Below the pieces are notes generated by a model that saw nothing but the letters and a program-made list of their open reading frames with translations, searched no databases and was not told the origin of the DNA. DNA of 38,620 nucleotides from an uncultured Eubacteriales bacterium (GTDB lineage: Bacteria; Bacillota_I; Bacilli_A; RF39; UBA660): contig ONSL01000005.1 of NCBI GenBank assembly GCA_900320505.1, positions 1 through 38,620 of the forward strand, given 5' to 3'. A program made the position numbers and the translations under genes. The stretch's first letter is position 1; the number at the start of each line of letters is the position of its first letter. This document shows, piece by piece, positions 23,592 to 25,184 of the stretch.

Positions 23592-23620
23592 TTTACTTTT
23601 TTTTAAAAATATGATATAAT
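23592..23620 (+). promoter_or_regulatory. Promoter of the DarT-like operon
   Basis: TTTACT (23592-23597) and TATAAT (23615-23620) with a 17-bp spacer. GAAGGGGG lies between it and the ATG at 23650. Confidence 0.6.
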
Positions 23621-23649
23621 CAGATAACAATTTGAAGGGGGAATATAAA

Positions 23650-24480
23650 ATGGGAGAAATATTTTATACAGGAAAAGGAGAAAAAGCCATTCTTAAACAA
23701 ATGGCTAAGGATAAAAAAACAGGCAAATTAACAATAATATTTTTAGTTAATGGAAAAGAAAAGGTCTACAAAAATGTTGACCCAAGTGAATTAAAAATGC
23801 TTTTAGATAGACAAGAAGAATTTAAAAAAATTGCAAAAATAAAAGGCATAAAAAAAGTTTTAGAGGATAGAAAAAAATTTATAAATGAAAATGGAATAAC
23901 AAGACTATACCATTATACAGATATAAATAACATAGAGAGTATATTAAAACATGGAATACTATCTAGAAATGAATTAACTGGAAAAAACATAGAATTTACT
24001 GAAAATAAAACAAAACATAATTTAAATGGTAATGATATTAGTATGAGTATATCTCATATAAATTATGATGAATTAAACAGATTAACAAATCATAGTAGAG
24101 AGACAAATATGATAGTATTAGTTACAAATACAAGGCCTCTAATGATGCTTGATACTGAATTTGCTCGTTCTACAACATCACTAAGCAGAACAGATAAGAC
24201 AAAAGATATAAAAGTACTATTTGATGGTAAAAGAGAATATAGAGGATATCAAAATAAATTACAACAATTACCAAACTATTATCCAACAAATCCAAATTCA
24301 GAAGCATTAGTTAAAAATATGATTAGTGCAGAAGATATAATGGATATAATATCCTTAAAAGACTTAAACAATATAGATAAGAAAAAACTAAATGATTTAG
24401 CATTTGATTATGGAATGGGATATTATACAGTTAATGAATATGAAGCAAGATGTGATGAAATAGGAATGAAATGGAGATAA
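23650..24480 (+). CDS. DarT-like ADP-ribosyltransferase candidate with an extra N-terminal domain
   Basis: About 276 residues. The ATG at 23650 follows GGGGG by nine bases. Residues 1-75 form a beta/alpha N-terminal part rich in Lys (LTIIFLVNGKEKVYKNVD). The rest looks like the DarT/DUF4433 fold: RLYHYTDINNIESILKHGIL near residue 85 (NAD-binding His/Thr and the 'N..SILkhGiLsR' helix) and, near 215, NSEALVKNMISAEDIMDI, matching the '(S/R)E-x-LV...I..e-I' motif holding the catalytic Glu. DarT modifies thymidine in single-stranded DNA and is toxic. The assignment is by motif only; related folds such as KptA (RNA 2'-phosphotransferase) use a similar YHxT start. The next gene overlaps by 10 bases. 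Confidence 0.55.
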   Translation: MGEIFYTGKGEKAILKQMAKDKKTGKLTIIFLVNGKEKVYKNVDPSELKMLLDRQEEFKKIAKIKGIKKVLEDRKKFINENGITRLYHYTDINNIESILKHGILSRNELTGKNIEFTENKTKHNLNGNDISMSISHINYDELNRLTNHSRETNMIVLVTNTRPLMMLDTEFARSTTSLSRTDKTKDIKVLFDGKREYRGYQNKLQQLPNYYPTNPNSEALVKNMISAEDIMDIISLKDLNNIDKKKLNDLAFDYGMGYYTVNEYEARCDEIGMKWR

Positions 24481-25034
24481 AGCTATATATTACAAGCAAA
24501 TATATAGATGAACTTAAAGAAGAAAATCTAAACATAAAACTTACACATAATCAAATTATAGACTATAATAGCTTAACATCTGCAATAAAAGAAAATGGAC
24601 ATGAAAATTATGAACATCTAGAAATATCACCAAACTCAAATAACAAATTTGGAAGAATGATAAGTGAAAAAAATCTAAAGATAAAACTTCAAAGTGGAAA
24701 AGAAATGTCAGTAAATGAAATCTATAATCATTCTCAAAAAATAATCAAAGATAATGAAAAATATCTAAAATTTGGAGATAGAATGATGAAGGACAAAACA
24801 TTTTATGACTATCTATATATGCTTGCTCTATATACACACAAAGAATACTGGAGTATTTTAGAAAACTATAAATACTTTACAAATTTGTATGGAAAAAATG
24901 AAGCAATGCCTGTAGCATTATTTGCAGGACTTCTAAACAATACTGATTACCTAGATATAATGCAAAATTCAAAAGAATATGAAGAATATCATAATAATAT
25001 TAAAATAAACAAATTTAATATTGCATATTATTGA
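24471..25034 (+). CDS. Unknown partner gene overlapping the DarT-like gene
   Basis: 187 residues, helical, no recognised family; in particular no macrodomain (the DarG antitoxin fold) and no HTH. The ATG lies inside the last codons of the upstream gene (10-base overlap), so the two are translationally coupled, as in toxin-antitoxin pairs. Hydrophobic helices appear at about 110-125 (YDYLYMLALYTHKEYWSIL) and 140-160 (MPVALFAGLLNN). A short gap separates it from tRNA-His. It may be an antitoxin or an effector partner; it could also be part of the same enzyme. Confidence 0.6.
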   Translation: MEIKLYITSKYIDELKEENLNIKLTHNQIIDYNSLTSAIKENGHENYEHLEISPNSNNKFGRMISEKNLKIKLQSGKEMSVNEIYNHSQKIIKDNEKYLKFGDRMMKDKTFYDYLYMLALYTHKEYWSILENYKYFTNLYGKNEAMPVALFAGLLNNTDYLDIMQNSKEYEEYHNNIKINKFNIAYY

Positions 25035-25065
25035 TTTTACTGGTAAAATTAATAATGTGTTCTAT

Positions 25066-25142
25066 GGCGGAATTGGTGAAGTGGTTAACACGCCGGTTTG
25101 TGGCACCGGTACGCAAGAGTTCGATCCTCTTATTCCGCCCCA
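25066..25142 (+). tRNA. tRNA-His (anticodon GTG)
   Basis: The sequence folds into a standard cloverleaf. The acceptor stem is GGCGGAAT/ATTCCGCC including the extra G at -1 that is unique to tRNA-His. The anticodon stem CCGGT/ACCGG (25093-25097, 25105-25109) closes a 7-base loop with GTG at 25100-25102. GTTCGAT marks the T loop. CCA (25140-25142) is encoded. TTGATT (25031-25036) and TAATGT (25053-25058) 16 bp apart are a possible promoter, and a terminator follows. Confidence 0.97.
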
Positions 25143-25152
25143 TTAGGAATTT

Positions 25153-25178
25153 AACGTTGATTATTCAACGTTTTTTTA
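25153..25178 (+). terminator. Terminator of tRNA-His
   Basis: AACGTTGA (25153-25160), loop TTAT, TCAACGTT (25165-25172) and a T run. Perfect 8-bp stem, 10 bases after the tRNA end. Confidence 0.9.
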
Positions 25179-25184
25179 TTGCAT

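Follow-up and report, generated by a model that had tools for sequence, protein, structure and literature searches.

Here we describe a two-gene operon from an uncultured gut bacterium, probably of rumen origin, which by its sequences and predicted structures clearly descends from a known toxin-antitoxin system, DarT1-NADAR (DarTG1), and in which both partners have departed from the canonical active site of their family. In E. coli C7 and Geobacter lovleyi, DarT1 and NADAR respectively tag and untag guanine in DNA (PMC11543638; structures 8baq and 8bat). The pairing itself is therefore already known, and the novelty lies in the paired loss of canonical residues. As the signature residues fail the functional test of both families, the pair is best named DarT1-NADAR-like. 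The window, by which we mean the whole stretch of 38,620 nucleotides that was analysed, is one contig of a 1.2-Mb genome that is 81.6% complete, and a rumen origin is suggested by the ruminant-gut assemblies, labelled Bacilli or Clostridiales, that are included among its named relatives in the genome_contigs set.

The two genes and the elements that surround them are arranged as follows:

23592..23620, + strand: promoter-like site TTTACT-17-TATAAT with an extended -10, in an intergenic stretch conserved in the sister genome G001
23635..23642, + strand: putative ribosome-binding site AAGGGGGA of the toxin gene, from sequence
23650..24480, + strand: DarT1-like ADP-ribosyltransferase gene (toxin), 276 aa from ATG
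23650..23874, + strand: N-terminal extension of the toxin (residues 1-75), modelled as a four-strand small barrel plus helix
24462..24465, + strand: putative ribosome-binding site AGGA of the NADAR-like gene, lying within the toxin gene
24471..25034, + strand: NADAR-like gene (antitoxin partner), 187 aa
25067..25142, + strand: tRNA-His(gtg), a neighbour that is probably not a functional part, in a neighbourhood that is not conserved
25153..25179, + strand: terminator-like hairpin and T run 3' of the tRNA, the sole terminator-like site found on this strand

The open reading frames overlap by exactly 10 bases, as an earlier note on this DNA had it, and the toxin gene has an alternative TTG start at 23632 that would give 282 aa. 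The toxin gene is followed directly by the NADAR gene, which is the order of DarTG1 operons and of the relatives; together with the overlap this supports a toxin-antitoxin-like operon, and co-expression of the two genes can be inferred from the layout. As to the shared promoter that was also proposed, a promoter-like site does lie upstream, within an intergenic stretch of which 62 of about 90 aligned columns are conserved with G001, where it is flanked by the same DUF1848 gene and by G001's own DarT1 gene; however, the overall number of promoter-like matches does not exceed that in shuffled sequence (14 observed against 15.6, sd 4.6). The gap between the NADAR stop codon and tRNA-His is 32 bases rather than the 31 given previously. 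Within 25035-25179 no terminator-like site was found between the two; since the only such site on the + strand comes after tRNA-His, the pair and the tRNA may share one transcript.

The first protein matched the Pfam DarT profile (PF14487) with E=7.4e-6 (26.3 bits, cut-off 22.5) over residues 87-118 only, and the sole convincing match in a sequence search of the PDB was E. coli C7 DarT1 (8baq, E=3.3e-5). The same structure was the best PDB match of its AlphaFold model (pLDDT 82.8) in Foldseek, with E=6.4e-14, and a Foldseek search of viral structures gave distant matches only. The AlphaFold input alignments contained the DarT and NADAR families, so that the fold result supports the sequence result and is not fully independent of it. 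By descent and predicted fold the toxin is a DarT1, which bears out the DarT-type ADP-ribosyltransferase assignment that had been made by eye from the motifs YHYTDINNIESILKHGIL and SEALV...AEDI; both motifs are present, and the non-canonical active sites of the two partners had gone unremarked in that visual reading. An added N-terminal domain of about 75 residues, for which a Foldseek search with the predicted model returned only weak SH3/Tudor-like matches, is likewise present. It is nothing special, since the DarT1s of the genus and family, which in alignments are about 262-264 aa long, usually carry a similar extension; many plasmid DarT1s are longer than this.

The second protein, to which no recognised family had been assigned, in fact matches Pfam PF22397 (NADAR-DarT1, 'DarT1-associated NADAR antitoxin') with E=3.3e-13 (50 bits, cut-off 27); searches of NCBIfam, PADLOC and PHROGs gave no match. 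Its AlphaFold model (pLDDT 91.9) has an extended YbiA-like fold, with Geobacter NADAR (8bat) as the best PDB match (E=1.6e-8, TM 0.80). NADAR alone was matched, by Pfam and by fold, in agreement with the earlier statement that the protein has no macrodomain. The inference drawn from that statement, of a non-DarG partner and hence a new pair, does not hold, the partner belonging to the known DarG1 class of NADAR antitoxins found with DarT1 (PMC11543638). A new toxin-antitoxin class is ruled out by the Pfam and fold matches of both proteins.

Residues R52, D54, M71, N104 and E152 of E. coli C7 DarT1 are essential (Schuller et al., PMC11543638). For residue numbering we used the pair at locus L087 as reference, as its residues agree with all key residue numbers checked from that study. 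The positions of the toxin that matter here are:

23911..23913, + strand: H88, the NAD+-binding His (H17 of E. coli C7 DarT1), kept
24013..24021, + strand: K122 and N124, replacing R52 and D54
24070..24072, + strand: E141, replacing M71
24172..24174, + strand: T175, replacing the guanine-holding N104
24301..24303, + strand: E218, the ADP-ribosyltransferase catalytic Glu (E152), kept

The changes are unevenly distributed. On the NAD+ side, besides the kept H88 and E218, T90, S97, R106, N119 and S133 are identical to T19, S26, R35, N48 and S63, and Y89 is a conservative change at F18, so that seven of nine contacts are identical and the other two conservative (F18Y, R52K). None of the seven acceptor-side residues (D54, M71, F72, K74, Y75, N104, Q150) is kept, N216 standing in place of Q150 near E218. 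This contrast is partly weak, because F72, K74 and Y75 vary in relatives too, and should be read as support rather than proof. The losses at conserved columns lie in the NAD+ loop, the base loop and the ARTT loop, in addition to F18Y, with the fold residues retained. The toxin thus keeps H17 and E152 (as H88 and E218) and has K122, N124, E141 and T175 where guanine ADP-ribosylation requires R52, D54, M71 and N104.

Among 38 other toxins, D54 and N104 are each kept in 35 and R52 in 34, and three of the exceptions (L065, L069 and L093) resemble a group of shorter DarTs with motifs of their own. That group, of about 170-190 aa and partnered by NADARs that keep E88, K95 and D171, comprises L061, L065, L066, L067, L068 and L069 from plasmids and L093 from a viral contig; its loops differ (GGNEWSxDAD...KGMGNYVHLCF), and its sequences suggest a second subtype of NADAR-partnered toxin.

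In the NADAR of E. coli C7, E88, K95 and D171 are important, K115 is important in vivo, and the substitutions E88Q and D171N inactivate the protein (PMC11543638). All three catalytic positions are replaced in the window antitoxin:

24714..24716, + strand: N82, replacing the catalytic E88
24735..24737, + strand: Q89, replacing the catalytic K95 in the ungapped alignment (some multiple alignments slide K90 here)
24882..24884, + strand: N138, replacing the catalytic D171

The identification of D171 with the Asp of FYDWLY was ruled out, the E. coli C7-type reference placing D171 at FTDIEF, where the window has Asn. In addition, most of the DIEFNPxKSINCQA loop is missing or changed, and the K115 segment is missing, as it is in four relatives from the genus and family. 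Of 54 other NADARs, 53 have E88, 53 have K95 and all have D171. The sole exception is a NADAR-DarT1 protein in genome G574 (locus L052, 1447-2136, E=3.9e-22), which has lost E88 and K95 and kept D171, and next to whose gene no DarT was recognised.

In trees of both proteins the window groups with G001 and G006. Support for this group is 98/99 in the antitoxin tree, where the exact sister relation is weaker (93/45), and 98/91 in the toxin tree, where window and G001 pair at 100/99. Because G001 and G006 keep the residues and the window nests with them, the trees and alignments show the loss of the toxin's guanine residues and of all three NADAR catalytic residues to be derived on the window lineage rather than ancestral. 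The terminal branch of the window is long, at 1.94 in the antitoxin tree (G001: 0.18) and 1.32 in the toxin tree (against 0.50), which leaves its exact placement uncertain; the locus shared with G001 supports the placement. For the comparison with G001, replacement by a foreign copy is unlikely, since both genomes have this promoter region and a DUF1848 gene next to it. As an observation on the pairs as a whole, the toxin is less conserved than the antitoxin throughout the window pair and those at L003, L004, L007 and L008, and between G001 and G006 it is 30% identical against 61% for the antitoxin, a pattern resembling that of an arms race which acts on the toxin.

A codon model of five taxa rejected omega=1 on the window lineage for both genes (2dlnL 13.4 and 24.9), and a branch test for raised omega on that lineage was not significant. 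These selection tests are rough, because synonymous sites are near saturation, dS being so even in flanking genes, and they average the whole window branch, so that a late, brief switch to drift would go unseen. In neutral simulations at 0.05 substitutions per site both reading frames survive with a probability below 3%, and about one of eight key residues is changed on average; where all eight change, no pair of reading frames survives. Simple pseudogene decay is ruled out by the intact reading frames, the simulation and the omega=1 test. With both genes staying intact, the altered pair may now act differently.

The pair has a patchy distribution, as had been expected of it: it occurs in three of eight genomes of the genus, the NADAR profile matched in five of 386 sampled family genomes, and the two genes are found together in the relatives examined. 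The outcomes that would have counted against the earlier note, namely a predicted structure lacking the ART fold, a first gene conserved without the second and a locus present in every relative, were thus not observed. In G001 it sits divergently beside the same DUF1848 gene as in the window and in G006 near a homologue of the window's 22198-22464 gene, which encodes a Coat_F protein, and these are its more constant neighbours. The position of tRNA-His is not conserved, this gene lying on another contig behind unrelated genes in G001, whereas in G006 about 1.1 kb separates it from the pair and it is encoded on the opposite strand. The suggestion that the pair occupies a tRNA-flanking hotspot is consequently not supported: it lies 5' of the tRNA, no integrase-like gene around tRNA-His was recognised in the window's list of open reading frames, and a search of the window for a second copy of the tRNA 3' end found the single copy only. 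A tRNA-His island is ruled out on the same absence of an att repeat and a recognised integrase, and on the non-conserved neighbourhood.

Canonical relatives of the pair are numerous both on plasmids and among IMG/VR viral contigs, which agrees with the mobile and anti-phage character reported for DarTG systems (LeRoux et al. 2022, as cited in PMC13036486). On a plasmid of Deinococcus sp. NW-56 (L070, 152-3675) an IS3-family transposase gene splits the DarT1 and NADAR genes, upstream of a BREX pglZ; nothing in this DarT1 aligns with Q150/E152, and the protein may be truncated. On a plasmid of Rhodococcus sp. WAY2 (L072, 1256-3164) a DarT family gene lies between UvrD helicase and ADP-ribosylglycohydrolase genes, and this DarT may have an eraser of a further kind. 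No second copy of the altered variant was found in viral contigs, phages or order-wide genomes, and genome_contigs held only canonical relatives. The window thus holds the single instance found, and a partial literature search found no paper on such a naturally altered pair.

We tentatively favour, at somewhat less than even chance, a chromosomal operon of toxin-antitoxin or anti-phage type derived from DarT1-NADAR, in which the acceptor has changed and the antitoxin acts by binding. According to this model the toxin would still bind NAD+ and transfer ADP-ribose, as suggested by the remaining His/Ser/Glu core and most of the NAD+ contacts. The acceptor would differ from the amino group of guanine in single-stranded DNA, an NAD+ side kept and an acceptor side lost being the pattern expected of a changed acceptor. 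The antitoxin would lack the known guanine-ADP-ribose hydrolysis and hold the toxin by direct binding, which is the natural alternative given that the published hydrolysis is implausible for it. There is a precedent in DarTG2, whose DarG binds its toxin (PMC11543638); for NADARs direct toxin binding has been proposed and not shown (PMC11125620). Loss of the antitoxin during phage infection would then free the toxin, as proposed for other DarTG systems. The stricter version, in which a DarT1 with a switched acceptor and a NADAR turned inactive binder had both sites rebuilt together under selection, is somewhat less likely again.

A close rival, nearly as likely as the remodelled pair, is that neither enzyme has any catalytic activity left and that the pair has ceased to be a toxin-antitoxin system, having either taken on a non-enzymatic job (for example nucleotide or mutual binding) or entered early loss. 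Both partners carry replacements at residues that are essential in their E. coli C7 counterparts, and four of the five toxin changes fall at residues whose single Ala mutants abolish the toxicity of E. coli C7 DarT1, which means that the toxin may just be inactive; the absence of the K115 segment and of most of the active-site loop of NADAR points the same way, and the antitoxin is the fastest-changing (1.94 against 0.18), as expected once a toxin is harmless. However, reading frames, overlap, ribosome-binding sites and promoter region are all intact, omega=1 is rejected on the window lineage, and the toxin retains the catalytic Glu together with NAD+-site residues that would serve no purpose in a dead enzyme.

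It is unlikely that the pair is an ordinary DarT1-NADAR that ADP-ribosylates guanine in single-stranded DNA and reverses this through shifted or substitute residues such as K122, E83 and K90. Descent, fold and operon would all accord with this, R52K is conservative and is matched by a Lys in Lactococcus L054, and E83 and K90 adjoin lost antitoxin positions. Nevertheless, N104, D54 and M71, each essential in E. coli C7, are all replaced, and E88Q and D171N, changes of the same kind as those in the window, inactivate E. coli C7 NADAR (PMC11543638); moreover, the conserved residues flanking E88 and K95 align ungapped, so shifted residues would face elsewhere on the helix. The original proposal, in which an unrelated second gene would make this a new toxin-antitoxin or defence pair, mobile beside tRNA-His, drew on its closeness to the tRNA and its patchy presence and is now highly improbable, the family and fold matches identifying the partner as a NADAR-DarT1 protein, no integrase, duplicated tRNA end or conserved tRNA neighbourhood accompanying it, and G001 sharing its promoter region and neighbouring gene.

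It has been asked whether NADAR antitoxins act solely by ADP-ribose removal or by toxin binding too (PMC11125620). A natural NADAR without catalytic residues, still paired to a DarT1-type toxin, offers a direct test of removal against binding. An active toxin would have a new target, the guanine-selecting residues being gone; if both proteins are dead, the locus would illustrate the domestication of such pairs. The profile names 'DarT' and 'NADAR antitoxin' assign a chemistry that neither protein should be assumed to have.

Of the known systems, YarT-YbiA (PMC11125620), whose target is not settled, also combines an ADP-ribosyltransferase toxin with an antitoxin of the NADAR superfamily, although YarT has no relationship to DarT, and a catalytic Glu is the hallmark of the YbiA subfamily. 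DarT2-DarG (DarTG2) shares the DarT-type toxin, and its antitoxin can act both by removal and by binding; in contrast, the window partner is no macrodomain protein and the window toxin is closer to DarT1 than to DarT2. The DarTG1 systems of E. coli C7 and Geobacter lovleyi are likewise two-gene operons with the toxin first, and share the DarT ADP-ribosyltransferase fold with the NAD+-site His and catalytic Glu and a NADAR-fold partner of the DarT1-associated family. They differ in that the window toxin lacks R52, D54, M71, N104 and Q150 and carries an N-terminal barrel-helix extension, and its partner lacks E88, K95, D171 and the K115 segment. Closest are the pairs of the genus and family (G001 L003, G006 L004, G354 L007 and G188 L008), at 26-33% identity for the toxin and 30-45% for the antitoxin, which have the same architecture, N-terminal extension and shortened NADAR loop without K115, G001 alone also sharing the locus and promoter region. 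Unlike the window pair with its altered sites, all four keep R52, D54, N104 and E152 in the toxin and E88, K95 and D171 in the antitoxin.
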